Part shown: positions 1,315 through 61,305 of the stretch, in pieces | Numbering within the stretch: the stretch's first letter is position 1 | Layout: each line of letters opens with the position of its first letter | IMG/VR virus record: IMGVR_UViG_3300009499_000295 | Span: 1-64,000 of that record | Source of the DNA: a virus | DNA length: 64,000 nt | Reading direction: 5' to 3' (one strand) | Notes under the pieces: generated by a model | What the model was told of the DNA's origin: nothing | Database searches by the model: none | Seen by the model: only the letters and a program-made list of their open reading frames with translations | Made by a program: the position numbers and the translations under genes

Positions 1315-1752
1315 ATGGGTGGTAAGGTCCGAACGTTTGAAGTAGAGGAATTAAAAGAACTTCTTTCTAAGAGCAACTTCAAGTACAGTGAGATACATGG
1401 AAAGTCAATCAAAGAAAGATTAGAACTTCTGTTAGGATTTCTAAATAACCGATTTGGGGTAAAGTTTCTCCTAGTAGGAACAACTGATTGTGGTGCATCT
1501 TCTTCTTTTAGAGGATCCCCAGCAGGAAACCCTCCAACTCTACCTAAGACAATTACCTTTAACTTCAGGGGAAAGTACTCACATACCGTTAAACATGCTG
1601 TCTATGTCTTCTGTCATGAGTATGGACACTTGTTATTAAATGAACTGGGATGGAAGGACTATGAGGAGTATTGTAATCAGTTTGCTGATATGATACTACT
1701 AGAGTTAGGAACACTTGCCCCAGATTTTCTTTATGGTGATATAGATGCCTAA
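1315..1752 (+). CDS. HEXXH metallopeptidase-like protein (ImmA/IrrE-like)
   Basis: A 145-residue protein with HEYGH at residues 101-105, the zinc ligand and general-base motif of gluzincin-type metallopeptidases. It is followed by a downstream acidic stretch and NQFADMIL, as in the ImmA/IrrE family where a Glu about a dozen residues on provides the third ligand. ImmA/IrrE enzymes cleave transcriptional repressors in mobile elements and stress responses; whether this protein has such a substrate is unknown. It overlaps the following TROVE gene by eight bases, so the two are translationally coupled. Confidence 0.65.
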   Translation: MGGKVRTFEVEELKELLSKSNFKYSEIHGKSIKERLELLLGFLNNRFGVKFLLVGTTDCGASSSFRGSPAGNPPTLPKTITFNFRGKYSHTVKHAVYVFCHEYGHLLLNELGWKDYEEYCNQFADMILLELGTLAPDFLYGDIDA

Positions 1753-2197
1753 AACGTTGAAAGAGACAATAAGAGTCTCTCTGGATAAGGATAAGTCTAA
1801 GACAGAGAACACTGAAGGCGGAGAAGCCTTTAGGATGTCTAAGAAGACAGAACTATACGAAAGAGTAATGACTTCCTTAATGGAAGGAAAGTTCTACGAT
1901 CCTGATAGTCAGGGTACAAGACAGGCAATAGCTGATCTAATTGAACAGATGGAGAAGATCGATCCAGAGTTTCCACTTAAGTTAGCCTCTTATGCTAGGA
2001 ATGAGATGCACCTACGAAGTGTACCCATATTCATAGCTGTAGAAGCTGCTAAGCATGAGAATATGAAGAAGCTTCTACCAAAGTGGCTTCCAAGTATAAT
2101 CCAAAGAGCAGATGAATTAACAGAGATTATAGCCCATTACATAGAAGAGAACGGTCCGATAGGAGATAGTAAGACAGGAGTAACTAAAGATGCATGA
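1745..2197 (+). CDS. TROVE domain protein, N-terminal part (Ro60-like)
   Basis: A 150-residue protein corresponding to the N-terminal HEAT-like helices of the TROVE domain of Ro60/Rsr. The middle (PEFPLKLASYARNEMHLRSVP and following) is typical of the family. In standard Ro60 proteins the chain continues directly into the sequence now encoded by the gene after next. Here it stops after a Gly/Asp-rich linker, and an unrelated small gene overlaps its end. Ro60 proteins form a ring that binds misfolded RNAs and Y RNAs and help RNA quality control. The two pieces could reassemble as a split protein. I infer a recent or tolerated gene insertion. Confidence 0.7.
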   Translation: MPKTLKETIRVSLDKDKSKTENTEGGEAFRMSKKTELYERVMTSLMEGKFYDPDSQGTRQAIADLIEQMEKIDPEFPLKLASYARNEMHLRSVPIFIAVEAAKHENMKKLLPKWLPSIIQRADELTEIIAHYIEENGPIGDSKTGVTKDA

Positions 2198-2501
2198 GAA
2201 TAAACACTGTGAAATTGATAAGGCCATATTCGGCCAGGAATATCCTGCAATTCATGAATGGATAGATGAGTTCTTCCCAAACTACCAAGATTGGGAACAT
2301 TGGAAAGAAAGACATCACCTTACTGCTATCCGAGAGAAATATAAAGAGGGCTCTAATGAGTATCTTTCTGCACTCTTGCATATTATCTGTGACTGGATTA
2401 GTCATGTAAAAGCATTTGAACTTCCTACAGATAGAAAGGAAACTCTAGAAATGTTAACCAACTATTGTCTAATTTCAGGGGATGATAAAAATGTTAAGTA
2501 A
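2190..2501 (+). CDS. Small acidic protein inserted between the two TROVE genes
   Basis: A 103-residue acidic and His/Trp-rich protein (HEWIDEFF, HWKERHHL, HIICDWISH) with no domain I can name. It overlaps the upstream TROVE gene by eight bases and the downstream one by eleven, so it is fully integrated into the reading train rather than sitting as loose cargo. It has no endonuclease motif that would explain its insertion by homing. Possible Zn-binding role from the His clusters; unproven. Confidence 0.6.
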   Translation: MHENKHCEIDKAIFGQEYPAIHEWIDEFFPNYQDWEHWKERHHLTAIREKYKEGSNEYLSALLHIICDWISHVKAFELPTDRKETLEMLTNYCLISGDDKNVK

Positions 2502-3636
2502 CCCATTAAAGAAAGGCCTTCAAGAAGCTATTCATAAATTCAGAGAGTACCACTTTGCTAAGTACAAGGGAAGAGGTAAAGCTGTTACAATGAAGGATGT
2601 CCTGAGGTTAGTTCACCCTAAACCTAGAAATGAAGAAGAGAGTGCACTATTCAAGAAGATCATAGAGGGTACACTTACACCTCCAAAGACATGGGAGGTA
2701 TTCATAAGTACCAACGGTGCTAGTAAGAAGAACTGGGAGATCATCATGTCCAAGATGGGTATCATGGCTCAACTTAGGAATCTTAGAAACTTTGCTAAGT
2801 ATGGCTGTAACGTAGACTCAGTAATAAGGAACCTAAACAATGAAACTACAATCCTTAAGAGTAAACAGTTTCCATTCAGATTCTTCTCAGCATATAAGGC
2901 TCTAGCCCAAGGTATGCGTGAGATTCCAGCTAAGTATCATCCTTTGACTCAACATCTGATGGATGCTGTACAAGATGCTATGGCAATCTCAGTAAAGAAC
3001 TTACCAGTCATTCCAGGAATAACATTCATGACTGCTGATAACTCGTCCTCAATGGGTGGTCTTTTATCTGAAAGAGGTTCAGTTTCCTATAGTGATGTAG
3101 CTAATCTTCTACAGGCCATAGCTTACCGGATCTCAGATCAGGCTGTAACATCTGTCTTCGGACAAGAGTTTGCTATTGTTCCTGTAAGTCAGAGATCAAC
3201 TATCATAGATAACATGTTAAAGTTCAAGAACACAGATGTAGGACACTCAACAAATGCTTACCTAGCCTTTGAGTGGCTACTAAATAACAAAATCAAGGTT
3301 GATAGGATCCTTCTATTCTCAGACATGCAATGCTATCGTGACTCAGGATATTCTACAGACACTGTGGCTTCTCTTCTTAGAGAGTACAGAGCCAGTATTA
3401 GTCCTGGATGTAGGTTCTATTCCTTCGATCTAACAGGGTATGGAACACTAAAGACACCAGAGAAAGAGACCTACCTGGTAGCAGGATGGTCAGAGAAGGT
3501 TCTTAACTTCATAGAACTGAATGAGACCAAAGGAGTCTCAGCAGTAAAAAAGGTGGAGGCGTATGAGCCCTTCAAAAAGAAAACACAAAGAAAGAAGACC
3601 ACTTCCAAATCCAAAACTACCCAGAAAGTTAGGTAA
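2491..3636 (+). CDS. TROVE C-terminal part plus vWA domain (Ro60-like)
   Basis: A 381-residue protein that begins inside the TROVE domain (KKGLQEAIHKFREYHFAKYK, then DVLRLVHPKP, a Ro60 hallmark). It continues to a von Willebrand A domain with the MIDAS motif DNSSS near residues 183-187, a conserved Thr further on and LLFSD for the last metal ligand. With the upstream partial TROVE gene it makes up a complete Ro60. The tail is Lys/Thr-rich. Start ATG at 2491 is preferred over 2482 because AGGGGA lies eight bases ahead. Ro60 proteins bind the ends of damaged or misfolded RNA; the neighbouring RNA ligase fits an RNA-repair role. Confidence 0.8.
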   Translation: MLSNPLKKGLQEAIHKFREYHFAKYKGRGKAVTMKDVLRLVHPKPRNEEESALFKKIIEGTLTPPKTWEVFISTNGASKKNWEIIMSKMGIMAQLRNLRNFAKYGCNVDSVIRNLNNETTILKSKQFPFRFFSAYKALAQGMREIPAKYHPLTQHLMDAVQDAMAISVKNLPVIPGITFMTADNSSSMGGLLSERGSVSYSDVANLLQAIAYRISDQAVTSVFGQEFAIVPVSQRSTIIDNMLKFKNTDVGHSTNAYLAFEWLLNNKIKVDRILLFSDMQCYRDSGYSTDTVASLLREYRASISPGCRFYSFDLTGYGTLKTPEKETYLVAGWSEKVLNFIELNETKGVSAVKKVEAYEPFKKKTQRKKTTSKSKTTQKVR

Positions 3637-6027: not shown

Positions 6028-6225
6028 TTGTTAGACATCTTTCACAAAGATTGTGATAAGAGAAACAAGAAAGAACAGAGATATATTGATCTTCACATAC
6101 CAAAACGTTTTGAAGAGAAACTATACTTCCTAATAGGATACAGTTTTAAGAACTTTGAACTCCGTATAGACCTAGACTTTTGGTTCTTATGGTACAAGGA
6201 TCATGAACTAATGATTTTCCGGTGA
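6028..6225 (+). CDS. Small hypothetical protein
   Basis: A 65-residue, aromatic-rich protein, start TTG with GGGAGGGTAGGA just upstream. A TTAAATA element lies 20 bases before the start. No recognisable domain; the N-terminus is charged and the C-terminal half is hydrophobic and aromatic (FWFLWYKDHEL). Function unknown. Confidence 0.55.
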   Translation: MLDIFHKDCDKRNKKEQRYIDLHIPKRFEEKLYFLIGYSFKNFELRIDLDFWFLWYKDHELMIFR

Positions 6226-6227
6226 TA

Positions 6228-6365
6228 ATGATGGATCATCAGAGTCCCTTCTACAGATGTCCCTACTGTAAAGGAAGGGTTATTGAAAGTAACCATGATG
6301 GAATTCATATGTTCTGTAAAGAGTGTGGAAGAGAATGGGATCCTTACAAGGTCAAGAGAGAGTAA
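6228..6365 (+). CDS. Tiny zinc-ribbon protein
   Basis: A 45-residue protein made almost only of a zinc ribbon: CPYC near residues 11-14 and CKEC near 30-33, ending in REWDPYKVKRE. It is placed immediately before a very similar tiny zinc ribbon and is a likely paralogue of it (both end in CGRxWD). Confidence 0.65.
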   Translation: MMDHQSPFYRCPYCKGRVIESNHDGIHMFCKECGREWDPYKVKRE

Positions 6366-6367
6366 GA

Positions 6368-6484
6368 ATGCCAAAACACTGTTTTTTCTGTGGTTGTCCT
6401 ATTGTTGAACGCTATGGTAAAGGTCTCTATTTCCTTCGTTGTACAGAATGTGGTAGAACATGGGACGAGAGAAGAGAGAAGTAG
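6368..6484 (+). CDS. Tiny zinc-ribbon protein, paralogue of its neighbour
   Basis: A 38-residue protein with CFFCGC near residues 5-10 and CTECGRTWD near 25-33. The order, spacing and the CGRxWD ending match the preceding gene, suggesting tandem duplication. The gene overlaps the next one by 25 bases in another frame. Confidence 0.6.
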   Translation: MPKHCFFCGCPIVERYGKGLYFLRCTECGRTWDERREK

Positions 6485-6663
6485 TTAAAAAAGAATGGTG
6501 TAATATCCTAACAGAGGTTCCTGAGTGCGAAGGAAAGTGTTGTCAGTTCTGTGAACAATTCCTTATGGGAATATGCATCTATTGCTGTACAAGGAGTGCT
6601 CCAAAGAAATGTCTAGAACTCGTAGACGAACGGACTTTCTTCTGGACTAGGGTATTCCGCTGA
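6460..6663 (+). CDS. Cys-rich small protein
   Basis: A 67-residue protein with eleven Cys between residues 14 and 47, including CCQFC and CIYCC, probably coordinating zinc or another metal. The start overlaps the upstream zinc-ribbon gene; no better start is available. Function unknown. Confidence 0.55.
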   Translation: MGREKREVVKKEWCNILTEVPECEGKCCQFCEQFLMGICIYCCTRSAPKKCLELVDERTFFWTRVFR

Positions 6664-6679
6664 GTAAGGGGTTACACAC

Positions 6680-6901
6680 ATGATAGAACCATGTGAGAAT
6701 GATCTTTTCTGGAAGAAACTCTTCGAGGGTAACTGGTACTTAGTTAAAGTCTCTACTCGGAACATTAACATCTTAGGATTAAGACACATATTCTACAGAA
6801 TAGAAAGATGGTGTAATGACACAACAGATAAAGAGAAGATAATAACTCATAAGTGGGAAGATGGAAAATGCATAACAAAGGTACGCTTACGATCGTTATA
6901 G
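6680..6901 (+). CDS. Small hypothetical protein
   Basis: A 73-residue protein without a recognisable domain, with Trp, Lys and Cys scattered throughout. Its 3' end overlaps the SLOG-like gene by 34 bases in another frame, so the last residues may be dictated by that gene. It may be a genuine gene because its start follows the upstream stop closely. Confidence 0.45.
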   Translation: MIEPCENDLFWKKLFEGNWYLVKVSTRNINILGLRHIFYRIERWCNDTTDKEKIITHKWEDGKCITKVRLRSL

Positions 6902-7248
6902 TGGGTTCAGAACAGAAGAAGTGGTCTTACCATAAAGAGTCTATCTGTAGAGCTCTGATAAAAGAATTCATGGAAGAACACCCAGATGAACTCTACATCT
7001 CAGGAGAATGCCATAGGGGAGGAGTAGATCAATGGGTAAAAGAGATAGCACATAACCTTAATAAGCGGTATAAAGGATATCCTCCTAAGGAACGAAAGTG
7101 GTACTACTACAAGAAACGTAACATCAAGATGGCTGAGATTGGGGATGTAGTAATCGACTTAGAACCATTCGGTTTTACTTCTGGAGGAACCTGGACAGCA
7201 AATTATGCTAAGTCGATAGGGAAGAAGGCAGTCACGGTTGAGATATAA
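6868..7248 (+). CDS. SLOG/DUF2493-like nucleotide-binding protein
   Basis: A 126-residue Rossmann-like protein: N-terminal strand TIVIVGS, then SGECHRGGVDQWVKEIA, RNIKMAEIGDVVIDL and SGGTWTANYAKSIGKKAVTV. The GGVD, RN..M and SGGT elements are those of the SLOG superfamily (DprA/LOG/YspA-like), whose members bind nucleotides or nucleic-acid-derived ligands. ATG at 6868 is preferred over GTG at 6853. In viruses such proteins are common; the ligand is unknown. Confidence 0.7.
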   Translation: MHNKGTLTIVIVGSEQKKWSYHKESICRALIKEFMEEHPDELYISGECHRGGVDQWVKEIAHNLNKRYKGYPPKERKWYYYKKRNIKMAEIGDVVIDLEPFGFTSGGTWTANYAKSIGKKAVTVEI

Positions 7249-7376
7249 TGAACGATAAAGAGAAGACAAAGAAACTCTGGAAGAAGTTGTTTCAAAATAA
7301 AGAAGAATACACTCTTGGTATATGGCCTTTCACTAAATCAAAACTCAAGAAACAAAAGGAATGGGAGAAGAAATAG
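7248..7376 (+). CDS. Tiny basic protein
   Basis: A 42-residue Lys/Trp-rich protein that starts within the stop of the SLOG gene (TAATG), indicating coupled translation. No domain; possible nucleic-acid-binding peptide. Confidence 0.5.
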   Translation: MNDKEKTKKLWKKLFQNKEEYTLGIWPFTKSKLKKQKEWEKK

Positions 7377-10091: not shown

Positions 10092-11678
10092 ATGGAAGTA
10101 AGAGAGAAGATTAAAGCACAAGTCAAAGAAATCAGAAGGTCTTTGTTCGGTATAGATGAGATCATTAAGATATACTGTCTGAGTAAAGCTGCAGATCTGA
10201 CAGTGCTCATGCTAGGGGAACATGCTATTGCTAAGTCCTCTTTGGCTAGAGATTGGAGCACTACTACAAGTCTTGACTTTCGTATAGTCACTAGCTCAGA
10301 AGTAGATGAGGCAATGATAGCCTACATAGACCCTGCTATCTTTAGAGAGAAGAATATAGTTCAAATGAAAAGAGGAGAATTGATGCTGAGAGATCACATA
10401 CTCGTAGATGAATTCTTTATGTGGTCTAATAAGTACAGGGCCAAGTTACACCAATTGCTTGAAGAGAAGACATATGCTGGTCTAGATATAAAAACTAAGA
10501 CATATACCTTTGCTAGTAACCCAATTACGGAACACTATGCAGGACAACAGGATGAACGGAACCTGGCTACAGAGGATCGTATTGACTTACTGTTACCAAT
10601 GTACCAACCTACTGTAACTCCCACCCAGAAGATGATGATGAAGTTCAATAAAAGAGGGAGACATGAGATAGAACTAGAACCCGTAGTTACATGGGATAAT
10701 TACCTTGAAGCAAGAGATGACATTATGAAGGTAGAGATACCTCCTGACTTAGTGGTATGGCTTACCCTCTTTGCAGAGTCTTTGAGTGCATGTAAGTACT
10801 CAGCTTCTAAGTTTGATGTATCTAGGGCTAGGATGCATACACTATGTGCAGAATGTAATCAACGTAAGCATCTCTGTGCTAAAGTAGCATTATCTAAACC
10901 AAGATTCCTAAGGGCAACTATCCTTCTAAGTAAGGCACTTGCATGGTATGATGAAAGGGAGACAATCTCAGAAGAGGATGTCTTTGCTTCTGTGAAGTAT
11001 ACACTACCACACAGAATGATATTCCTACAAGAGGAAAGAACCATCTTCGAGGCAGAAAGAGCTCTTCCAGAGATCCTACAAGAGTTCATAGATGACTTTA
11101 ACAACTGGGAAAGCAGAAAGATCTTTAGTCACCTTGAAGCATTGATTCTAAAAGCAATAAATGATAAGAGTCCATACTTTGACCTAGAATCAGCTAATAA
11201 TCTCCAGAGTGAGGTAGCAGAACACTTAGCCATAAATAACTATGTAAAAGAGGCCGTAATGAGGGTTCAACAGGAAGTGAAGAAACGTTACAGAGTAATC
11301 CTGAATGCTGGAAAGATCACAAATGTTGATGATATAAAGGAACTACTCAATAAATCTGGCTTAAACCTCTATGATAAAGGAGAGATCCTAGAAGAGTACA
11401 TGTCGAAGAATGAACTCTTAACCTTCTATCATGAGCTAGACAGAAGAGATACGAAGGCTCTAGAACGAGTAGCTATTGCAGTAAGAGCACTACATCAGAC
11501 AGAAACTCCTAATGTAAAGATAAAGTCCAAGATCAGATTAGTGAAAGCCTTTAAGAGAGAAATAACCTATGCCTCAGACCTGATACTAATCAAGGAAGAA
11601 AGAGGAAGGATTAGGATAACAGCTTCTACACCTGATCTAAAGAAGAAGTTCGAGAAGTTACTGGAGGAAACTAAATGA
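10092..11678 (+). CDS. MoxR/RavA-type AAA+ ATPase
   Basis: A 528-residue protein. The AAA+ core has Walker A GEHAIAKSS (about 42-50), an insertion typical of MoxR (YIDPAIFREKN), Walker B HILVDEFF (Asp106/Glu107) and a sensor segment FASNP. A long helical C-terminal extension follows, with a Cys/His cluster near residues 257-268 (CAECNQRKHLC) that could bind zinc. MoxR ATPases act as chaperones with vWA-domain partners; a vWA protein and a metallopeptidase lie 3-5 kb downstream in the same direction. The next gene overlaps by four bases. Confidence 0.8.
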   Translation: MEVREKIKAQVKEIRRSLFGIDEIIKIYCLSKAADLTVLMLGEHAIAKSSLARDWSTTTSLDFRIVTSSEVDEAMIAYIDPAIFREKNIVQMKRGELMLRDHILVDEFFMWSNKYRAKLHQLLEEKTYAGLDIKTKTYTFASNPITEHYAGQQDERNLATEDRIDLLLPMYQPTVTPTQKMMMKFNKRGRHEIELEPVVTWDNYLEARDDIMKVEIPPDLVVWLTLFAESLSACKYSASKFDVSRARMHTLCAECNQRKHLCAKVALSKPRFLRATILLSKALAWYDERETISEEDVFASVKYTLPHRMIFLQEERTIFEAERALPEILQEFIDDFNNWESRKIFSHLEALILKAINDKSPYFDLESANNLQSEVAEHLAINNYVKEAVMRVQQEVKKRYRVILNAGKITNVDDIKELLNKSGLNLYDKGEILEEYMSKNELLTFYHELDRRDTKALERVAIAVRALHQTETPNVKIKSKIRLVKAFKREITYASDLILIKEERGRIRITASTPDLKKKFEKLLEETK

Positions 11679-12466
11679 GTTATCTACCTAAAGAGGGAAA
11701 GAGAGCAGATTCCTTCCCTGACTATAGTAAGTACTTCTACGACTTCCTAAAGATACCTGAGACAGAGATCTTTAAGCAGTCTAAACAGGAAAGGGTAAAG
11801 CAAATTCTAATCATTATAGCAGGAACTATGGGAATAGGTAAGACTACACTCATAGAGAACATCATCAATAACCTCCGGAAACACTATGGAATAGAGAAGA
11901 CGAATACAGTTTATTCCCAAGTTTCCGCTAAGGTTCTAATGGAGTATGGATTCAAAGGAAATCCCATGAGAGGATGGGATGCTGAGAAACCTATTCAGAT
12001 ATTAGTCTTTGATGATGCTACCTCTGCAAGACTAACTAAGAATGATCAAAGACAGTTCTGTAAGATGAGACATCAGATGATGGATGATACAAAACTGACT
12101 GAGGGAGTAATATTCTCAATCCTGGTTACTCATGATTGGTATCGACTAGATCCTAACTTCCGTAGAAATGCCATTGTAACAGCCTTTCTCTCAGTATCTC
12201 CTCTAGATCAATACTCAAGAAGAGAGTATGGTAGAATCTTAGGAGAAGAAGGAGTACACTTTCTTTCAGAGAGATTATCTAAGTCTCTACGGTTTGATAA
12301 GGATAAGGGAACTGGTCTGGTAGTTCTACCTTTTGTACCTCCAGGAGAAAGGTCTAAGAAAGTAGGCTGTATTAAATGGAAGAACATACAGGATGTGAAC
12401 TACATAGTTATTAAAGAACTTCCCTCGGGAAGATTAGTATGGAAGGAAAAGGTGAAACAGAAATGA
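11675..12466 (+). CDS. P-loop NTPase
   Basis: A 263-residue protein with Walker A GTMGIGKTT (50-58), Walker B ILVFDDA (109-115) and a VTHDW segment further on that may serve as sensor. The fold resembles ABC/zeta or viral packaging-type P-loop proteins, but I cannot fix the family. It is coupled to the MoxR gene (ATGA), and its stop overlaps the next gene, so it probably belongs to the same functional set. Confidence 0.7.
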   Translation: MSYLPKEGKRADSFPDYSKYFYDFLKIPETEIFKQSKQERVKQILIIIAGTMGIGKTTLIENIINNLRKHYGIEKTNTVYSQVSAKVLMEYGFKGNPMRGWDAEKPIQILVFDDATSARLTKNDQRQFCKMRHQMMDDTKLTEGVIFSILVTHDWYRLDPNFRRNAIVTAFLSVSPLDQYSRREYGRILGEEGVHFLSERLSKSLRFDKDKGTGLVVLPFVPPGERSKKVGCIKWKNIQDVNYIVIKELPSGRLVWKEKVKQK

Positions 12467-13011
12467 ATGAAAAAGTAAACATGATAGAGGATGAGGAAGA
12501 AGAAATCTTAGAAAAGACAGGCCCAGATAAGAAACATAACGAGAGAGTCTTCAACTACAAGATTGCCTCTGAAGAAACTAGAGAGATAGAGGTAAGAGGA
12601 ATTGCTTTCCTAGTTAAGTTCTACAAGACTACTACAGGAACTGCAGGGATCAGGGTTCAACTAGAAGACAATGGTCCAATATTCCAGAAGTTCTTAGAGT
12701 ACTGTAAAGAGAACAAAGGTCAACGGATAGAGAAGGAAACACAAGCTAACCTAATGGCCTTCACTACATTTGGTAAACTAGATCAGGGACTAGAGTTCTT
12801 TCCAGTAATGGGATTCTATATCTTCCCATTTGGAGATAAGACTACAGAACCACATCTAGTATTCAATGAAGAGAAGGATGCTCCTGAACCTATGGAACGC
12901 TTAGAGGCATTCATGGACTACTACAAGAAGAAACTTGGTATAAAGGTAAGACCCAAGAAGAGCTCATTCGATAGTCTTAGAAAGCTTGTCCTAACAGAAA
13001 TAGGTGACTAG
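12463..13011 (+). CDS. Uncharacterised protein of the MoxR neighbourhood
   Basis: A 182-residue protein with an acidic N-terminus (EDEEEEI) and an alpha/beta body (FLVKFYKTTTGTAGIRVQL, FFPVMGFYIFPFG). No family recognised. The ATG chosen overlaps the stop of the NTPase gene; an upstream ATG at 12439 is possible. Confidence 0.6.
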   Translation: MNEKVNMIEDEEEEILEKTGPDKKHNERVFNYKIASEETREIEVRGIAFLVKFYKTTTGTAGIRVQLEDNGPIFQKFLEYCKENKGQRIEKETQANLMAFTTFGKLDQGLEFFPVMGFYIFPFGDKTTEPHLVFNEEKDAPEPMERLEAFMDYYKKKLGIKVRPKKSSFDSLRKLVLTEIGD

Positions 13012-13012
13012 T

Positions 13013-13204
13013 ATGCCAACTCATGGAAGTATAAGTAAAGCAGGAAAGGTTCGTAATCAGACTCCCAAGATTGAGAAGACCCCTAGAAAGAAGAAGAGCC
13101 CTAAAGTAAACAACAGGAAGAAACACTACAAACGGTTCATACTAAACCAAGAAGTAGGACAGAGTGAAATAGGAAGAAGAAAACGTGGAAGACGCAGGGT
13201 ATAA
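13013..13204 (+). CDS. Ribosomal protein eS30 homologue
   Basis: A 63-residue, very basic protein that starts MPTHGSISKAGKVRNQTPKI. This matches the hallmark N-terminus of archaeal and eukaryotic small-subunit protein eS30 (HGSLxKAGKVRxQTPK), followed by a Lys/Arg stretch, RNRKKHYKRF-like spacing and a basic tail longer than usual. eS30 sits near the decoding site and mRNA entry on the 30S/40S head-body junction. The ATG at 13013 gives exactly the expected start; a GTG at 13004 is possible. The family is absent from bacteria, which supports an archaeal host. A viral copy might alter host ribosomes. Confidence 0.8.
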   Translation: MPTHGSISKAGKVRNQTPKIEKTPRKKKSPKVNNRKKHYKRFILNQEVGQSEIGRRKRGRRRV

Positions 13205-13442
13205 TTCAGGTCTTTGCCCTAACCTTAAAGAATGTGGAGAATGGAGAGGAGAATGGTATTGGGGATTCTGTCATCAAGACTTTGCCTGGTCACGATGCCC
13301 TCTGTTTATAAAGACAATCAACCCAAGTTCTAGATATCTAGGTATGGAAACCTTCCTTAAGTATACTCAGTTAGAAGTAATGAGAAAGGCGTTGAAAGAG
13401 AATGTCAAAACCTATACAGGGAAACGTAGAAGTAATCACTAA
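13185..13442 (+). CDS. Small Cys-rich protein with INPSSRYLG
   Basis: An 85-residue protein with Cys near residues 11, 17, 29 and 38 (a possible zinc site) followed by INPSSRYLG near residues 45-53, one of the extended forms of the window motif. GTG start inside the end of the eS30 gene; overlaps the metallopeptidase gene by 41 bases. Confidence 0.55.
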   Translation: MEDAGYNSGLCPNLKECGEWRGEWYWGFCHQDFAWSRCPLFIKTINPSSRYLGMETFLKYTQLEVMRKALKENVKTYTGKRRSNH

Positions 13443-14274
13443 GAAGAACTGGAAGAGGATTAAGCAGGAAGTAGAGGACTCTGTTCTCCGAGCCTGGAGA
13501 AATAGTAAACTTATTGTCCCTAGAATGGCCCTAGACTTCCGAGTACACTTCCAAGAAGTATATGCATCATCAACTGGTAGAATCTGGGCTTTTACCCCTT
13601 TCTGGAGAGGAAGAGTCTTTACCGATGTTATCATGATGCATGAGTTTCTCCATTGGGCTATATATCCTATAGATCTATGGAAGGGACTCTCTGACATGTT
13701 CAAGGCACGAAGAATGTTAGCAGAGGATCTTAAGTGGAAACCTACAAACAAGGAAACTGACCTCTATGGAGAGGTAGAGGACTGGTCAGGTTTTGAATAT
13801 GACATTACAGAATTCAGCTTTGTCCAGAATATCTTAGGAGACTATCTAATCAATCTTCATATACATGATAACCATCCTATTCTCTTTGCTGATCTATGGA
13901 AGTTCCTTTACCATGATGGAACCTTCTATGAGCAACAGAAACAACTAAAGAGAGACTCTACCTTTATTCTCTACCTATCAGCATACCCTGATCTTCTAAG
14001 TGACATAAAGGAAGAAGTTACCCTGATAGATCCAAAGTCAGAGAAGGACAAGGATAAGATCATAGACATTATAGTAGAAGTACGACATGGTAGAATGAGT
14101 AAGGTCTACGCCATTAAGGAACTGACTAAGATCTTTCATCCGTACATAGTACAGGATCAGAAGGATTCTAAGGGTAACAAGGGAGCAGAACCAAAGTGTC
14201 CTAAGTGTGGTCACGATGAGTTTGAGGTAGTAGGGTACGAGGATCCAAAGACAGGGAAGTGGGTAGATGTCTAA
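13402..14274 (+). CDS. Metallopeptidase of a MoxR-vWA system (DUF2201-like) with zinc ribbon
   Basis: A 290-residue protein. HEFLHW at residues 80-85 is an HEXXH zinc-peptidase motif. The C-terminus ends in a zinc ribbon opening with CPKCGH; only one CxxC is clear. Metallopeptidase-like domains of this sort (DUF2201) normally precede a vWA domain, either fused or in the next gene, next to a MoxR ATPase. Here the ATPase is upstream and the vWA gene is 1.2 kb downstream. The substrate is unknown. Confidence 0.65.
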   Translation: MSKPIQGNVEVITKKNWKRIKQEVEDSVLRAWRNSKLIVPRMALDFRVHFQEVYASSTGRIWAFTPFWRGRVFTDVIMMHEFLHWAIYPIDLWKGLSDMFKARRMLAEDLKWKPTNKETDLYGEVEDWSGFEYDITEFSFVQNILGDYLINLHIHDNHPILFADLWKFLYHDGTFYEQQKQLKRDSTFILYLSAYPDLLSDIKEEVTLIDPKSEKDKDKIIDIIVEVRHGRMSKVYAIKELTKIFHPYIVQDQKDSKGNKGAEPKCPKCGHDEFEVVGYEDPKTGKWVDV

Positions 14275-15222: not shown

Positions 15223-15474
15223 ATGAGAAGACCCCGGTTTGAGGAAGTCTGTATCCATCCTTTCTATCTTAAGAAGAAGAAACTATGTATCCACCCAGAT
15301 GACAGAATCTTCTTCTTTGAACATCCGGCCTTCTTCGATAAATCTTTCTTTAGTTCTGATAAAGTATTCAAACCCTTTCAGTTAGGAATGATTTATGGAT
15401 ATGAGGTCTTTGTTCAGGATGATATGCAGATTATGCTCCTAAGTATGAATGGAGGAAAGAGTGTTGAAGATTAA
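15223..15474 (+). CDS. Small hypothetical protein
   Basis: An 83-residue, Phe-rich protein (FFFEHPAFF, KSFFSS) with a basic N-terminus. No recognised domain. The codons near its end provide the GGAGGA used by the vWA gene. Confidence 0.55.
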   Translation: MRRPRFEEVCIHPFYLKKKKLCIHPDDRIFFFEHPAFFDKSFFSSDKVFKPFQLGMIYGYEVFVQDDMQIMLLSMNGGKSVED

Positions 15475-16462
15475 GATAAAATGTACTAAATGTAATTGGG
15501 AAGCAGTAGTAGAGGTATCACGCTCCCCCTTAGGTTCTCTAAAACCAGGTAAAGCTATCAAGGGTACAGGGAAAGGACTGAAAGTTAAGTGGACAAAGGA
15601 ACAACTGGATAAGGTTATGGATGCTGCTGGAGGACTAGGTGCCTCTAGAGATGAGCTAGGTCAGGTAGGTATCCGTGTCCCCATTCCTCAGTGGGTAGAC
15701 GCCCTGGAACGTAGAAGACTTAGACAGTTTGTAAGGAAGCATCTAAAGGTCTCTAAAGATTTAAGAAACGCTCAGGGAGAAAGAAGTCAAGTATCTACTG
15801 CTCCTTGGCAAATGGGAGATTCTTTCAAAGATGTAGATCTAGCCTCTAGTGAAATTGCAGCCTATGGAGTTCCCGATCTTCGTCTTATTCCTGGAGTAAC
15901 CCTACAGAAGAGGGTCTTTGAGACTACTAAGGGAGGAGACCGAGAGATACTTAGGGGAATAAAGTTCTTTAACATCATAGATGTCTCAGGAAGTATGTTC
16001 GGCGGATCAAGTCAAAGTCAAGGAAATATCGATAAGGTTCACAAAGCACTTATGATGGCCGAAGAGACATCAAAGATCTGTAAGAAGTTAGGTTATGACT
16101 ACAACTTGTCTATCTTCTCTGGTATAGCTACTAGGATTCCCAAGAGAAAGATCAAAAGATTCTTTAAATCTGAGACTGAAAGAGCAACCTATCCTGGATG
16201 GAATGGAGGAACTACACTATCATCTGCTCTCGGACTATACGATCTAAAGGAACTCAAGGATGGAAACTTGGTCATAATGTCTGACATGGATATATCTGAC
16301 TCTGAGGAATCTAAGAAGAAGTTGAAAGAGATAGGAAATGTAACCTCATCCTTCAAGGTAGTAATTATAGAGTATCGTTCTCAACTAAGGAAAGAAAGAT
16401 TAATAAGAACAAGGGAACTATTTCCAGATAAGAAAGTACAAATACTCCGAATAGCAATCTAA
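15461..16462 (+). CDS. vWA domain protein, partner of MoxR ATPase
   Basis: About 333 residues. After a short zinc-like CTKC segment and a helical region comes a von Willebrand A domain with a complete MIDAS: DVSGSM (Asp near 174), a downstream Thr in GGTTLSSAL and MSDMD. Such vWA proteins are adaptors that bind MoxR ATPases and clients. With the MoxR gene at 10092 and the HEXXH protein at 13402 this makes a three-part system. GGAGGA precedes the GTG/TTG pair; ATG at 15449 is an alternative start without a good site. Confidence 0.75.
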   Translation: MLKIKIKCTKCNWEAVVEVSRSPLGSLKPGKAIKGTGKGLKVKWTKEQLDKVMDAAGGLGASRDELGQVGIRVPIPQWVDALERRRLRQFVRKHLKVSKDLRNAQGERSQVSTAPWQMGDSFKDVDLASSEIAAYGVPDLRLIPGVTLQKRVFETTKGGDREILRGIKFFNIIDVSGSMFGGSSQSQGNIDKVHKALMMAEETSKICKKLGYDYNLSIFSGIATRIPKRKIKRFFKSETERATYPGWNGGTTLSSALGLYDLKELKDGNLVIMSDMDISDSEESKKKLKEIGNVTSSFKVVIIEYRSQLRKERLIRTRELFPDKKVQILRIAI

Positions 16463-19157: not shown

Positions 19158-19568
19158 ATGAAAGCCTATGTTGATGGATCCTCTACTGGTCTCTACGGAT
19201 ATGAGATAACTACTCCAAGAAAGGAGAGGAGTCTTGTCAGAGACCATCCAATGACAAATAACCAAGCAGAATGGTTAGCTCTAGTTCATCTACTTATGAA
19301 CCTAGAGCCCAGAACAAAGTTAACTATCTTCTCTGATTCTCAGATAGTTGTTAATCAGTTAATAGGGGCATGGGAGACTAGGGACAAGGAGATGCGACAC
19401 CTTAAGGGAGTTGCTAGGGAACTAATAGAGATAAAGGAACTAAACGTTAAGATGATCTGGATTCCAAGGAAACAGAATGTCTTTGGTTGGTATCTAGATA
19501 AGATCATGAAACATCGTAGGAAGAAGAGAAGGAAGCGTAGAGAGAGGATAAGGAGAGGATATAATTGA
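19158..19568 (+). CDS. RNase H-like protein
   Basis: A 136-residue protein with the RNase HI-type core: Asp6 in YVDGSS, Glu38 in NQAEWLAL, Asp60 in FSDSQ and a late Asp114 where the fourth carboxylate is expected. The ending is extremely basic. RNase H removes RNA primers or RNA:DNA hybrids; the basic tail could bind nucleic acid. ATG at 19158 has GGAGAG just upstream; an earlier ATG lacks a site. Confidence 0.7.
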   Translation: MKAYVDGSSTGLYGYEITTPRKERSLVRDHPMTNNQAEWLALVHLLMNLEPRTKLTIFSDSQIVVNQLIGAWETRDKEMRHLKGVARELIEIKELNVKMIWIPRKQNVFGWYLDKIMKHRRKKRRKRRERIRRGYN

Positions 19569-20776
19569 AAGAACTAAAAGAACTTCTAAAATCAGATAAT
19601 CTAGTAATTATGGCTTGTCAGGAGTACCCAGGCTTTCCTGATGAAGTACACTTCTGGGGAGGAATGGGTGTAGTTGCTCAGTCTATCTCTGAGAGACTAG
19701 TCAAGAGAGGCTATGAGGTCCTAGTCATTCCTCGAAGAGTAAAGGAGTATGGAGCCGAAGGTGTCTTCTATGACCAGAAGAATGAAGTTAATGTTCTAAG
19801 TTTACCTACTCAAGCATTCCAAGCAGGAAGTGAGAATGGTGATCTCTATCAGATCTATCCTACTCGTGCAGGAAGGTCTATCCTAGATCACACCTTCACA
19901 ACATGGAGGTACTTAGAGAAAATAGGGATGAAGGATCCTATCTTCCACTGCCATGATTGGTTAGAAGTAGGTACACTCAGGATGTCCAAGAAGAGTGGCT
20001 TCCGAAACATCTTAACAGTTCATATGTCTGCCATTAGAACAGAAGATAGGGTGGAAGCAGATAAACGTCTAGAACTAGAACGACTGGCAGGAGGTTATGC
20101 TGATAAGATCCATTATGTCTCCTTAGCTCAGATGAACTCTTGTAGGTTGTATCACTGGAATCATGATAAGAGACACTATGTCATAAAGAATGGTGTAGAC
20201 ATCAATAAGTTTACCCCACCTAAGGAACAACCTATAGGAGACTATGTCTTCTTTGTAGGGAGACTTACTCCTGTGAAGAATGTTACTGCCCTAGTAAATG
20301 GATGGAGACTCTTCAATAATAAATACCCAGGAGTAGAACTAAAGATCCTAGGAGCATCAGGTATCTCTAACATAGACGTTATGCAGGCTATTGAGAAGTT
20401 AGAACCTAATCGGAGAAACAAGGTAGAACTTAGGATTGAGATGGTCTCAGAGGAAGAAAGACTAAGGTACTACCGGAACTCTACTGTGTGTTGCTTCCCA
20501 AGTTCCCAAGAAGCATTTGGTATTGTAGCTGTAGAAGCACAATCCTGTGGAAAGCCTGTAGTAGTTGGAGATGTAGGTGGCTTTAAGGAGAATGTCCTAG
20601 AGGGAGTTACTGGTGTTCATGTCCAGGGTCACATTCCTGAGGAAATAGCTAGAGGTTTAGAACTAGCCTTCCTTAACAGAAAAGCATGGGGAAAGAACGC
20701 TAGGAAATTGGTCAAAGGTTTCTTTTCATGGGATAACCTGATAGATAACTATGTAGAGGAGTTGTATGAAGAATGA
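19565..20776 (+). CDS. GT-B glycosyltransferase (GT4/GT5-like)
   Basis: A 403-residue protein with an N-terminal GGMGVVAQSISERL acceptor-site loop, HCHDW near the domain boundary, then a GT4-type C-terminal domain: FVGRLTPVKN, FPSSQEAFGIVAVEAQSCGKPVV. This resembles glycogen/starch synthase and GT4 enzymes, which use nucleotide sugars with retention of configuration. It sits alone among zinc-ribbon genes, far from the large glycan cluster. TTG start with GGAGAGG upstream. Confidence 0.75.
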   Translation: MKELKELLKSDNLVIMACQEYPGFPDEVHFWGGMGVVAQSISERLVKRGYEVLVIPRRVKEYGAEGVFYDQKNEVNVLSLPTQAFQAGSENGDLYQIYPTRAGRSILDHTFTTWRYLEKIGMKDPIFHCHDWLEVGTLRMSKKSGFRNILTVHMSAIRTEDRVEADKRLELERLAGGYADKIHYVSLAQMNSCRLYHWNHDKRHYVIKNGVDINKFTPPKEQPIGDYVFFVGRLTPVKNVTALVNGWRLFNNKYPGVELKILGASGISNIDVMQAIEKLEPNRRNKVELRIEMVSEEERLRYYRNSTVCCFPSSQEAFGIVAVEAQSCGKPVVVGDVGGFKENVLEGVTGVHVQGHIPEEIARGLELAFLNRKAWGKNARKLVKGFFSWDNLIDNYVEELYEE

Positions 20777-46614: not shown

Positions 46615-49194
46615 ATGCGTGGAGTGCTTACAAGAGTTGAGCAGAAGATAGAGGAATGGCCAAAGGGCACTGGTAGGAAGAAGTCTGTCATTTGGCTCTT
46701 CATTAGAGGAGAGGATAAGAAGAGGTACGTCTTTAAGGATCCTTTCTTTGAACCCTACTGTTACTTTAATAGGGGGGTACTGAATGTGACCTCTTTCCCT
46801 AAGGAGGTTAAGAAACATGCAGTGGTGAAGATAGAGGGTAAGAGTTATGTAAAGGTCTGGACTGACTTTCCTACGTCTGTTGCTAAGTTAAGGAATATTG
46901 TGGAGCATAAGAAGCCTAACATAGTTACTACTTTTGAGGCAGATATTGTCTTTCCCCTAAGGTACATCATAGATAAGTTGATTAGGGGACCAGTGGAGTT
47001 TGATCCTGGTCAAGGGAATATAAAACCGATAGATGAGAATATTCCATCTAACCTACGTATCCTAATCCTTGACATTGAGACACTTGGTAATGAAATAATC
47101 TGTCTGACTATATGGGATAATTATGATGAGAAGTACTATACGTGGTACTGGAGAAAGAATCCCCTTATGATAGAGGAGGAGAAGGATTGGGTAATAACCT
47201 GGTGTGAAGACGAGGTATGGATGCTTAAGGAAGCACTTAAGTTCATTAGAAAGAAGAACCCTGATGTAGTTACAGGGTATAACGTTGACTTTGACTTAGT
47301 GGAAATAAGGAAAAGGGTTCTATCCCTAGCCTCTCCTGAGGTTGGAACAGCATGGGATTATATCTGTCCTATGCAGGGGAAGACTAGAGCTGACGTCTAC
47401 CGTATGCCTCCTCCCAGAGATAGGAGAAAGAAGTTTAGAGACTTCTGGGTAAAAAGTAAACACCAGAGAATACCAGGAAGGAATGTAGTAGACCTTCTAC
47501 AGATCCTGATGAAGATAGGAAAGCATCAGTTATCTGAGTTTAACTTGGACTTTGTAGCACGGCACCACCTTAAACCTTCTATGGGGAAGAGGAAGTTCAA
47601 TGGGATAATCATCTCTAAGATGTTAGGTAAGATGTGGAATAAACATCCAGTAGAGGTCTTAAAGTATAACAAGATGGATGTAGAACTCTGTGTGGAACTG
47701 AATAAACAACTAGCCCTGATTGCCTTTGCTGATGAGATAAGAAAGTTTGTGGGGATTCAACTAGATGATATTCAGTCTAATAAGAGGATAGCACACATAG
47801 AACTACTAAGGAAGAGTAAGAAGCCCTTCCCTGTAACAAAGAGGGAGAAGAGGTCATTCAAGGGTGCCATAGTAATTGAACCTAAGAAAGGGGTCTATAA
47901 GTGGGTCATTGTAATGGACTTTACCTCTCTATATCCTTCAGTTATTCTACAGTTGAATATTGATCCTGATACATACATTAGCACTAAGTGGAGACACAAG
48001 TACAACATTACCAATGCATACATCCTAAAGGATAAGGATGAAAATACAGAGTATTGGTTTAAGAAGAAGCCTGAGGGAGACCTATCTGCTGTTCTGAGGA
48101 AGTTCTTAGCACTTAGAAAGGATAAGAAGATTGAACTAGAGAGGACTAGAAAGACAGGGAATAAAGAGTTAACTGCTATTCTAGATACCCAACAGTATGC
48201 CCTAAAGGTGATAACTAATGCATTCTATGGGTCACTAATGTATAGGGGACAACCATCAGCTTGGATGTGTGCTAGGGCTATTACCTGTGGAGCAAGGGAG
48301 TCTATTAGGTTTGCTAAGAAGGAAATAGAGAAGTTAGGATACATGGTAATCTATGGTGATACAGACTCAATAATGATTGCCTCTAAGTTTAGTAGTTATA
48401 AGAAGGTGGTGGAGGAAGCAGACTATCTAAGTAAAAGGGTCTCTGTTAAAATGCCTAAGTTTCTTAGTTCCTTTGGAGGAACAGGAGATAAGAGCTACAT
48501 TAACTTAGCACTGGATAAAGTCTTTAAACACTTCCTAATGGATGAGAAGAAGAAGAGGTATGCAGGAATACCCATAACTAAGTATGGAGAGGACAAATTA
48601 GAGGTAAAGGGTTTTGGGACAGTAAGATCAGATACGTCTAAGTTTACAGGAGAATTACAGAGAAGACTACTTAAGGAGATCCTACTAGAGAAGGAGAAGG
48701 GAAGGATAAAGTACCTTACTGAACTAGAGTTGGAGGAGTTTACTAGAAGACCTCTAACTGAGATAGGGGTCCCCTGTGTATTGACTAAGCCACCTAGTAA
48801 GTATAAGGGTAATTCAATACAGAAGAAGGCATTTCACTTTACCAATAAATACCTGGGAGGAGACTTTAGGGTAGGGGATAAACCTAAGAGGATCTATGTA
48901 AAGACACTCACAGAGAAGGCTCCCATAGAGATGATAGAACCAAAGGGTGTAGATGTCATAGTCTATGACGTAAATGATCTAAAGCTTCCTGATTGGTTAG
49001 AGATAGACTACCCAAAACAGGTGAATAGGACTGTAAAACCTAAGATAGAGAAAGTACTACAGTTTGTAGAGATAGAATGGAAGGACCTGAAGTTACCTAG
49101 TATACTGATTAAGAAGAAGAAGAAACGGAAGAAGAAGGCAAAGAAGTTGAAGAAGGCAAGGGAGTTAGTAAAAGGACAGACCAAGCTTGGCTGA
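46615..49194 (+). CDS. Family B DNA polymerase with 3'-5' exonuclease
   Basis: An 859-residue protein with exonuclease motifs LDIETLG (Asp153, Glu155), GYNVDFDL (Asn223, Asp225) and YNKMD (351-355), and polymerase motifs DFTSLYPSVI (near 435), KVITNAFYGS and YGDTDS (near 580-585). Catalytic residues appear intact, so it is probably the replicative polymerase of the element. The C-terminal tail is very Lys-rich. No PIP box is obvious. Overlaps with the preceding HNH gene are absent (abuts at one base). Confidence 0.9.
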   Translation: MRGVLTRVEQKIEEWPKGTGRKKSVIWLFIRGEDKKRYVFKDPFFEPYCYFNRGVLNVTSFPKEVKKHAVVKIEGKSYVKVWTDFPTSVAKLRNIVEHKKPNIVTTFEADIVFPLRYIIDKLIRGPVEFDPGQGNIKPIDENIPSNLRILILDIETLGNEIICLTIWDNYDEKYYTWYWRKNPLMIEEEKDWVITWCEDEVWMLKEALKFIRKKNPDVVTGYNVDFDLVEIRKRVLSLASPEVGTAWDYICPMQGKTRADVYRMPPPRDRRKKFRDFWVKSKHQRIPGRNVVDLLQILMKIGKHQLSEFNLDFVARHHLKPSMGKRKFNGIIISKMLGKMWNKHPVEVLKYNKMDVELCVELNKQLALIAFADEIRKFVGIQLDDIQSNKRIAHIELLRKSKKPFPVTKREKRSFKGAIVIEPKKGVYKWVIVMDFTSLYPSVILQLNIDPDTYISTKWRHKYNITNAYILKDKDENTEYWFKKKPEGDLSAVLRKFLALRKDKKIELERTRKTGNKELTAILDTQQYALKVITNAFYGSLMYRGQPSAWMCARAITCGARESIRFAKKEIEKLGYMVIYGDTDSIMIASKFSSYKKVVEEADYLSKRVSVKMPKFLSSFGGTGDKSYINLALDKVFKHFLMDEKKKRYAGIPITKYGEDKLEVKGFGTVRSDTSKFTGELQRRLLKEILLEKEKGRIKYLTELELEEFTRRPLTEIGVPCVLTKPPSKYKGNSIQKKAFHFTNKYLGGDFRVGDKPKRIYVKTLTEKAPIEMIEPKGVDVIVYDVNDLKLPDWLEIDYPKQVNRTVKPKIEKVLQFVEIEWKDLKLPSILIKKKKKRKKKAKKLKKARELVKGQTKLG

Positions 49195-50455: not shown

Positions 50456-50797
50456 GTGAAGCATATACTTAAATCAGGAGAAGGCAGAAAGGCAGACTGT
50501 TTTCTCTGTAAAGAACCCCTTGATGGGGATGTCTTCTGGACTGTAATACAATCAAAGAAGGAGATACGTGTATTCTCTTGTCCTAAGTGTGGTCAGGATT
50601 ATATGCTAGAGAAGAATGTACTTACAGACTGTTGGGAAATTGATAAGAAGTGCCCCTGTAAAATATCACTTTCTCTCGAGGATCTTTCAGGATCTCTACC
50701 TAAGTGGAGAAAGACAAAGTACTTTTACTGTGATAAGTGTTTTAGTGAGGCATTTGGTAACATCCTATTTGAAAACCTAGGTGATAAAAGTGAATAA
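50456..50797 (+). CDS. Zinc protein with several CxxC
   Basis: A 113-residue protein: CFLC near residues 15-18, CPKC near 42-45, CPC near 66-68 and CDKC near 92-95, so up to two zinc sites. GTG start with GAGAGG from the upstream tag. No tag of its own. Precedes the glycan cluster. Confidence 0.6.
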   Translation: MKHILKSGEGRKADCFLCKEPLDGDVFWTVIQSKKEIRVFSCPKCGQDYMLEKNVLTDCWEIDKKCPCKISLSLEDLSGSLPKWRKTKYFYCDKCFSEAFGNILFENLGDKSE

Positions 50798-51833
50798 ACT
50801 ACTCTGGATCTCAGACTATCCCCTAAAGGGTACATCATTCGGTAATGTAACCTTGGAACTCTGTAGAAGGATACAGAACTATAAGATATACATCCTGGGA
50901 ATAGGTTACACAGGAACCCCCATAGCTCCTTTCCCTAATATGGATATACTTCCTCTGGAGAATGCTAAACAGATAGAGTACTATGTAAGGAAGCTTAAGC
51001 CAGATAAGACGGTTGTATACCACTCATTCTACTTCTTAGAACAACTAACTGGAATAGAGTTACCAGACAATACAGTAGGTTACATTCCAGTAGAGGGAGA
51101 GAAACTCCCTGCTAACCTAGTAGCTTACCTAACTAACTTTGAGAACCTGATAGTTCCCTCTAAGTATTCACAGGGAATACTACGAAAGGAGGGACTTCAC
51201 TCAGAGATTGTCTACCATGGAGTAGATAGTAACTTCTTCACTCCTGCAAATAAACCACCATTAAAGGAGTTCAGGTGGGGTTACTTAGGACTTAATGACA
51301 TTAGGAAACAGATACCTAGGATTATAGAGGCATACTCAAGACTACCAAGGAGGACAAGGGGATCCCTAGCAATAGCAGCAAAGGGAACTGGACACTATCT
51401 TCTCTCAGCAGTAGCTCAACAGTTTAGGGTGTCTCCTATCTGGATAGAGAAGAAGTACTATGGGATACCAATGGCTAAACAGAATATCCTAAGTTTCTAC
51501 CGTAATCTATCATGCTATGTAAACTGTTCATCAGAGGCATTTGGTCTACCTAACCTAGAGGCTGCTGGGGCAGGGATACCAAGTATAGCACTAGATCATG
51601 GGGCTTCTAAGGAGATAATGGGAGGCGGGTCTCTCTATGTTAAGGTTAAGGATATGCTTGATACGAACATAGGACAACTGGGTCTTGCAGACAGAGATGA
51701 CCTATACAGAAAGATGAAGGTAATCTTAGAGGTTCCTCCAGAACGAAAGAGGTTAATCAAGGCAGGAAAGAGGAGAGCTAAGATCTTCACATGGGAGAAG
51801 GCATTGAAGCAACTACTGGATGTGATAGATTGA
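50790..51833 (+). CDS. GT4-type glycosyltransferase
   Basis: A 347-residue GT-B protein: LLWISDYPLKGTSFGNVT at the N-terminus, VPSKYSQ, HGVDSNFF and NCSSEAFGLPNLEAAGAGIPSI near the C-terminal Glu-x7-Glu donor site. Transfers sugar from a nucleotide donor. First enzyme of the large glycan cluster. GTG at 50790 or 50781. Confidence 0.75.
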   Translation: MNKLLWISDYPLKGTSFGNVTLELCRRIQNYKIYILGIGYTGTPIAPFPNMDILPLENAKQIEYYVRKLKPDKTVVYHSFYFLEQLTGIELPDNTVGYIPVEGEKLPANLVAYLTNFENLIVPSKYSQGILRKEGLHSEIVYHGVDSNFFTPANKPPLKEFRWGYLGLNDIRKQIPRIIEAYSRLPRRTRGSLAIAAKGTGHYLLSAVAQQFRVSPIWIEKKYYGIPMAKQNILSFYRNLSCYVNCSSEAFGLPNLEAAGAGIPSIALDHGASKEIMGGGSLYVKVKDMLDTNIGQLGLADRDDLYRKMKVILEVPPERKRLIKAGKRRAKIFTWEKALKQLLDVID

Positions 51834-52090
51834 GGATAGAGATAGTAAGGAAGAAGGCAGAGAACCCAATAGATAAGGATCCTATGATTACCTGGTTATG
51901 GGATGCCCTTAATCCCCTCTTTAAGGAGACAGATGGAAAGGTAATGGTCTACATGTCAGATGACCTAGGACCTAATGAGGATCAGAGGGGTATGGTTATC
52001 TACCTAGAGGGTCTGAAGTCAACAGAGATGCGTATAAGAAAGATTATAGAACTAAATCCGACAAATAGGAACTATCAGGAGGAGAAATAA
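51830..52090 (+). CDS. Small protein with NPTNR near the end
   Basis: An 86-residue protein (WLWDALNPLF, VMVYMSDDLGPN), no recognised domain, ending ELNPTNRNYQEEK; NPTNR is a tag variant with Leu before the Asn. TTG start overlapping the previous stop. Confidence 0.55.
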   Translation: MRIEIVRKKAENPIDKDPMITWLWDALNPLFKETDGKVMVYMSDDLGPNEDQRGMVIYLEGLKSTEMRIRKIIELNPTNRNYQEEK

Positions 52091-52389
52091 TGAAATCTAT
52101 AAAGATAAAAAGGGGTCATTGGCCATCAGGAATATCGAATGGACTAACTATACATTGTAGTGTGTGTGGAGATATACCTAAGTTTGATTATAGAGTAAAA
52201 GATGAACTATGGATTAAAATAATTCCTAAAGCATTTAGAAGAGGAGCAATATGTTTACCATGTCTAGATAAATTAGCTGTAGAGAAAGGAATAGACATAG
52301 GTAAAGGACTAATTAGTTTTCAATATACAGGAATAAATAAGACTATAGAACTAGTGCCAGTTACAGTATATTATTACAAGAAACATTAG
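52090..52389 (+). CDS. Zinc protein related to the SCCGHG copy-2 domain
   Basis: A 99-residue protein with CSVCG near residues 23-27, KDELWIKII and CLPCLDKLAVEKGIDI near 55-70, then a TGIN segment. Aligns by eye with the C-terminal domain of the protein at 37685 (VTDELWAKVI, CLECF, IGIN). More AT-rich in codon use than its neighbours. Function unknown. Confidence 0.6.
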   Translation: MKSIKIKRGHWPSGISNGLTIHCSVCGDIPKFDYRVKDELWIKIIPKAFRRGAICLPCLDKLAVEKGIDIGKGLISFQYTGINKTIELVPVTVYYYKKH

Positions 52390-52431
52390 ATTGATAGACA
52401 AACGTAAGATACCTGGGAGTAGCCTTGAATC

Positions 52432-52439
52432 TTTAAATA
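52432..52439 (+). promoter_or_regulatory. Archaeal TATA box upstream of a tagged mini-protein
   Basis: TTTAAATA, a near-consensus archaeal TATA box, in a 90-base gap that is among the longest in the right half of the window. A start of transcription some 25 bases on would leave a short leader before the ATG at 52480, which has ATAGGA upstream. This may be the promoter of the glycan cluster. Confidence 0.5.
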
Positions 52440-52479
52440 CAAGCAGGACACTATTAGTTGTTAGTAGGGATAGATAGGA

Positions 52480-52596
52480 ATGAGTATAGGGAAGATGATT
52501 TTTGAGAAGAACCCAGATCTCTTAGAGGAAGAGGAACTGGTAGATGTAGATAACCCTAGTTCAAGATATTTTGGAATTGATCAGAATGATAAGTGA
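52480..52596 (+). CDS. 38-residue protein with DNPSSRYFG
   Basis: A very small acidic protein (EEEELVDVD) carrying DNPSSRYFGID near residues 24-34. Half of it is the extended form of the motif. Preceded by a TATA box and an SD, so it is expressed on its own terms and not merely as a by-product of a neighbour. Confidence 0.55.
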   Translation: MSIGKMIFEKNPDLLEEEELVDVDNPSSRYFGIDQNDK

Positions 52597-52855
52597 TGAA
52601 CGAGCTAAACAGGTTTGGATGTGTACTTTCTGTGCTACTCCACATGAGACTAAGGAACAGGCTGAACAGTGTTGGGAGTCACACTCTGAGTTAACCATAG
52701 ACTATATATTCGGTGGGATTGGTGGAGGGGATATGCCTTTGGAGTGTGTTATCAAGAAGCATGAGAGAGGTTACATTACCAAGATAGCAACTTACACTAA
52801 GAAAGAGGAAGTAGAAGTTCAAATGAGGGAAAAGAGAAGTGTCAAAAGGAAGTAG
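52586..52855 (+). CDS. Small zinc protein
   Basis: An 89-residue protein with CTFC near residues 13-16 and QCWESH near 29-34, a C2H2-like finger, followed by strands and a basic tail. Overlaps both neighbours. Confidence 0.6.
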   Translation: MISDERAKQVWMCTFCATPHETKEQAEQCWESHSELTIDYIFGGIGGGDMPLECVIKKHERGYITKIATYTKKEEVEVQMREKRSVKRK

Positions 52856-54266: not shown

Positions 54267-54280
54267 GGAGGCAAGAATGA

Positions 54281-54733: not shown

Positions 54734-54734
54734 G

Positions 54735-59490: not shown

Positions 59491-59502
59491 GGAGGGTATA
59501 GG

Positions 59503-61293: not shown

Positions 61294-61305
61294 GAGGAAT
61301 ATAAA

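Follow-up and report, generated by a model that had tools for sequence, protein, structure and literature searches.

A gene for ribosomal protein eS30 in a large tailed virus, probably of a TACK archaeon

The virus represented by IMG/VR record IMGVR_UViG_3300009499_000295 carries a gene for ribosomal protein eS30 (S30e), located on the + strand at positions 13013..13204 of the analysed window, which comprises positions 1 to 64,000 of the 133,079-bp record. We consider it probable, with moderate confidence, that the gene encodes a functional eS30, which was captured by a large tailed virus from a TACK host, for which Bathyarchaeia is the likeliest class, and which joins the 30S subunit of that host.

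The eS30 ORF starts with ATG and encodes a 63-aa product (ORF translation, MPTHGSISKAGKVRNQTPKIEKTPRKKKSPKVNNRKKHYKRFILNQEVGQSEIGRRKRGRRRV) with the N-terminus MPTHGSISKAGKVRNQTPK. A Shine-Dalgarno sequence, AGGTGA, which is complementary to the 3' end of archaeal 16S rRNA, is present at 13002..13007 (+ strand), 5 nt upstream of the ATG. The ORF start that was called mechanically, GTG at 13004, falls within this Shine-Dalgarno sequence, and the start of eS30 was thus placed at 13013. The initial annotation had recognized eS30 here by its hallmark N-terminus, and the profile check confirmed this identification: the Pfam model Ribosomal_S30 (PF04758) matched the ORF over profile positions 2-45 of 58 with E 2.9e-12, its 47.1 bits exceeding the cut-off of 27. 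The best PDB matches in the phmmer search were two archaeal eS30 chains, 9e71_Ba and 9fhl_e, with E-values of 2.4e-11 and 3.2e-11, respectively. The eS30 match is far above chance level. The GC content of the gene is 41%, compared to 40% for the virus, and no second eS30 copy was found in the 133,079-bp record.

Among 92 cellular eS30 sequences aligned with the window eS30, 21 columns were conserved to 90% or more. The window eS30 kept 20 of these, with L7I as the sole change, along with 15 of the 33 less conserved columns. Pro2 is among the retained conserved positions, and the N-terminal core elements H-G-S, K-A-G-K-V-R, and Q-T-P-K are all present. The 19 differences from the consensus avoided the conserved columns (hypergeometric P about 1e-4). 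The eS30 copies of two other viral contigs, L002 and L003, retained 17 and 19 of the 21 columns, with P-values for avoidance of about 7e-4 and 4e-6, respectively. This substitution pattern fits a working ribosomal protein, though conservation alone is no proof of selection within the virus, as the lineage from which the gene came directly may be missing from the sampled genomes. The window eS30 may have been acquired recently from such a host, and its conservation would then reflect selection in the host, not in the virus.

The window eS30 shares with cellular Bathyarchaeal eS30 (rps30e) the core MPTHGS-x2-KAGKVR-x-QTPK, P30, a GQ motif near the C-terminus, and an Arg-rich tail, but differs in having S51 and E52 for the usual N-W and I7 for L7, and in being virus-encoded among virus genes. 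The tail had been described as longer than typical and as a possible source of new function. A length of 58-72 aa and an R-rich tail are found in many eS30 proteins of Bathyarchaeia, exemplified by the C-termini GQYKPGQRSRRKRR, GQNWGDRGRRRGRRR, and GQNPLKRRRRRRRRH, and the window tail, GQSEIGRRKRGRRRV, is of the same kind. The tail is thus of ordinary Bathyarchaeal length, and a new function conferred by it was rejected, as R-rich tails are common at the ends of Bathyarchaeal eS30.

The contig represents a Caudoviricetes-like tailed virus with dsDNA of at least 133 kb. The stretches of the same record outside the window (L004, L005, L006, and L007) include, all on the minus strand, genes for the large terminase subunit TerL (L005:12521-14032, contig 96521-98032; E 1.5e-35), the portal (L005:10719-12155; E 5e-18), an HK97-type major capsid protein (L004:13152-14189; E 5e-20), and a tape-measure candidate (L004:7429-9714; E 8e-5), in addition to baseplate/tail-fibre candidates. 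These structural genes lie at 67-98 kb, far from eS30 and on the opposite strand. The initial annotation's assignment of eS30 to a virus was thus upheld, and the contig as a chromosome segment was rejected on the basis of TerL, portal, capsid, and tape measure and by the lack of neighbours in common with cellular loci. Within the window, a profile search identified PolB (46615-49194), and a ribonucleotide reductase gene is also present. No tRNA genes or Rfam matches were found, and in ten selected ORFs the Pfam ribosomal families all stayed below their cut-offs, S27e and S26e by a wide margin. Nothing in the ORFs profiled pointed to a broader set of viral translation genes. Neither TerL nor the ATPase neighbouring eS30 (11675..12466) had a close relative in the viral contig set.

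The eS30 gene is packed tightly within a run of + strand genes with viral ORFs on either side. Upstream, this run comprises a MoxR-like AAA+ ATPase at 10092..11678 (Pfam AAA_lid_2, 28.8 bits against a cut-off of 22.7; bpMoxR and MCM P-loop below cut-off), a P-loop/AAA-type ATPase at 11675..12466 (Pfam AAA, 24.4 bits against a cut-off of 21.2), and, directly before eS30, a 190-aa ORF at 12439..13011 that has no assigned function and no Pfam match and is probably co-transcribed with eS30. Downstream, an 85-aa ORF at 13185..13442, which contains INPSSR (13317-13334), overlaps the end of eS30. It is followed by a 290-aa protein at 13402..14274 that had no Pfam or PHROG match above cut-off and may, judging from its HEFLH (HExxH) sequence, be a zinc metallopeptidase, and by a putative vWA-type protein at 15449..16462 with a DVSGS MIDAS-like motif, a putative partner of the MoxR-like ATPase. 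The MoxR/vWA module proposed in the initial annotation was thus supported on its MoxR side by the AAA_lid_2 match, whereas its vWA side remained a reading of the DVSGS motif, with no Pfam match to a vWA domain. ORFs carrying the virus-wide NPSxR motif, described below, flank eS30 on both sides, indicating that eS30 is not in a host flank. None of the neighbours of the window eS30 was shared by eS30-bearing cellular loci.

Three small-subunit proteins, eS30 among them, are common to TACK/Asgard archaea and eukaryotes and absent in other archaea. Among prokaryotes, eS30 is confined to TACK and Asgard archaea, eukaryotes also having it (PMC11698992), and the archaeal host claimed in the initial annotation can therefore be narrowed to a TACK or Asgard archaeon. 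eS30 thus marks the host at this level without any other host link. Cellular eS30 was abundant in TACK and Asgard genomes; of 256 Bathyarchaeia genomes, 209 had it. Bathyarchaeota supplied most of the top-ranked matches to the query alignment, and the closest cellular copy in pairwise comparison was Bathyarchaeal (L015; 38 of 62 residues identical, about 61%), suggesting Bathyarchaeia as the likely host class. When two 20-kb stretches were searched as DNA against the 256 Bathyarchaeia genomes, only imperfect matches of 30-80 bp were obtained. Only one region recurred among them, the beginning of the eS30 gene (around window 12996-13089), which aligned with genomic eS30 genes over 53-80 bp at 74-81% identity. 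The other matches inspected in these genomes included no CRISPR repeats or spacers and gave no provirus link. A codon-level kinship with the Bathyarchaeal eS30 L173 (12 of 16 shared codons; median one third) was unconvincing, being the best picked of about 100. The phylogeny that had been expected to place the host lineage did not do so: the maximum-likelihood tree, built from 58 columns, had 39 open forks, and the three viral eS30 stood apart and unplaced. Some Bathyarchaeia genomes contain two or three different eS30 genes, namely G001:C1 (L012/L090 and L093) and G004 (L089, L092, and L095). The two genes of G001 share a single 2.15-Mb contig and have ordinary genes around them, which hints at ribosome heterogeneity within the host.

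Scanning 2.9 million viral contigs brought up two eS30 genes besides that of the window, and a looser DNA pattern for eS30 returned the same two loci and chance matches. eS30 was not found among deposited phages and plasmids, and no PHROGs family matched it. L002 is a 91-kb contig with only a weak portal match. It resembles the window virus in its glycosyltransferase genes and, by profile, in an AAA ATPase gene. L003 is an 8-kb contig with the gene order terminase, portal, probable protease, major capsid protein, and eS30. The three contigs differ in the gene setting of eS30, and the viral copies may represent independent captures. The L002 eS30 (L002:7944-8162) has no start codon near HGS and therefore bears an N-terminal extension of 11 or more residues (11-16) ahead of HGS. 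This extension would be on the end of eS30 that faces h44 and the A site in ribosomes, and the L002 eS30 appears to be a better candidate for altered function than the window eS30.

In S. solfataricus, the mRNA entry channel of the 30S subunit accommodates eS30, which touches h16 and, through Pro2, a residue typical of archaea, also h44; the eukaryotic protein extends its N-terminal tail as far as eIF1A and the codon-anticodon at the A site (PMC11698992). Among viral ribosomal proteins, incorporation into ribosomes has been shown only for bS21 and bL12, in E. coli (PMC6375957). This precedent and the N-terminus retained by the viral eS30 suggest that the latter may be incorporated into 30S. 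The viral eS30 would be translated during infection from a Shine-Dalgarno-led message, would enter the host 30S by replacing or competing with host eS30, and would sit by the mRNA entry channel, its N-terminus close to both h44 and the A site. The virus may benefit through a ribosomal-protein supply kept up during takeover or through initiation or decoding tuned for viral mRNAs. The changes in the window eS30 are mostly at host-variable positions, which favours a near-equivalent spare part over a radically altered protein. It is also conceivable, though we regard it as unlikely, that TACK tailed viruses repeatedly took eS30 to build specialised ribosomes with initiation or decoding shifted to viral messages, in which case the N-terminally extended eS30 of L002 would reach into the decoding region.

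An action outside the ribosome, as a basic RNA/DNA-binding condenser, a minor virion protein, or a decoy titrating eS30-binding factors, would agree with the very basic nature of eS30 and with the late-gene position of the L003 copy directly behind the major capsid gene. However, the strongest constraint is on the ribosome-facing N-terminal core and not on net charge alone, the same basic tail is present in ordinary cellular eS30, and the window eS30 is far from the structural genes on the other strand, and we hold such a role to be improbable. More doubtful still is that eS30 is a passenger, that is, a recently acquired host gene that brings no benefit and is decaying. Its occurrence in only three viral contigs among 2.9 million and the lack of other translation genes among the ORFs profiled would be expected of a passenger, but the frame is intact, the Shine-Dalgarno sequence is good, the base composition is virus-like, no host genes adjoin eS30 in its tight packing between viral ORFs, and the gene recurs in three different virus contigs with different gene settings. 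Although both the capsid and terminase genes lie beyond the window, with neither inside it, we find it very hard to credit that a host chromosome segment or an assembly chimera accounts for the contig or its left arm, given the complete head/packaging module on a single 133-kb record, the NPSxR motif of the ORFs flanking eS30, which recurs between 91 bp and 66 kb and also within the terminase, and neighbours of eS30 that are absent from all eS30-bearing cellular loci.

Virus-encoded ribosomal proteins are an established kind, with bS21, bL12, bL31, bL33, bL9, and HPF encoded by bacterial viruses (PMC6375957). As in those viruses, a single extra ribosomal gene with a conserved core is carried here by a dsDNA tailed virus, and bS21 is, like eS30, a small-subunit protein involved in initiation. 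In contrast to the bacterial-virus proteins, eS30 is of archaeal/eukaryotic type and located at the mRNA entry and A site, and bacterial ribosomes have no counterpart. Among archaeal tailed viruses, L21e has been reported in Hafunaviridae (PMC8651126) and bL19 in Kunpengvirus of Bathyarchaeia, with L21e named in 2024 as the sole earlier archaeal-virus case (PMC10848311). These viruses are likewise tailed and carry one ribosomal protein gene each, and Kunpengvirus shares the likely host class, though both proteins are of the large subunit (bL19 being of bacterial type), whereas eS30 belongs to the small subunit and is situated close to the decoding site. An eS30 gene has previously been recorded in FBR murine sarcoma virus (FBR-MuSV), which carries fau (ubiquitin-like-eS30) as an antisense, untranslated sequence (PMC6375957). 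Unlike this retroviral antisense host cDNA, the window eS30 is free-standing, apparently translated, and without the ubiquitin-like part. No earlier report of eS30 in an archaeal virus was found in the literature searched, most subscription journals being outside its coverage, and eS30 is, as far as that literature shows, a ribosomal protein type new for archaeal viruses. The initial annotation's view of eS30 as an unusual viral protein holds to this extent, but archaeal viruses with a ribosomal protein gene have already been published. The window eS30 brings the decoding region of archaeal/eukaryotic type within the range of virus-encoded ribosomal proteins and points to the mRNA entry/A-site region as worth controlling during infection.

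The flanking motif, [FWY]NP[ST]xR (FNPSER, WNPTER, FNPSSR, and others), occurs at about 40 sites between window positions 91 and 52552, at contig position 66068, and in the TerL N-terminus. Its carriers are mostly small viral proteins, often Cys-rich (zinc-ribbon-like), and in about half of them it is at the C-terminus or no more than three residues from it. Called ORFs contained 33 occurrences, compared to 0.4 in shuffled proteins, and the synonymous codons of the motif vary freely, indicating that selection acts on the peptide. The motif was absent from G257/G258, and a strict DNA pattern for the motif tail had no match in other viral contigs. It is possibly a sorting, packaging, or assembly tag. 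Furthermore, an [LF]WxxLF(G)-like motif, often near the N-terminus, is found in many small right-arm ORFs (L006 and L007; contig 104-133 kb), for example at contig 128877-129182, with 14 occurrences observed and 1.9 expected in shuffled proteins, and may be a second virus-wide linear tag.

Several other features were noted in the record. ORFs resembling glycosyltransferases, epimerases, aminotransferases, and methyltransferases are numerous at window 19565-20776 and 50781-62427 as read from the sequence, which suggests that the virus performs extensive glycan synthesis. A 103-aa ORF (2190-2501) divides a Ro60-like TROVE/vWA protein at window 1745-3636 into two ORFs, with TROVE positions 37-119 in the first ORF and positions 135-356 together with vWA_Ro60 in the second. 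Furthermore, a second apparent MoxR-vWA set was read at L006:5822-8597 (contig 109.8-112.6 kb), where an ATPase (6161-7306) lies between ORFs with DTSGS and DSSGS motifs.
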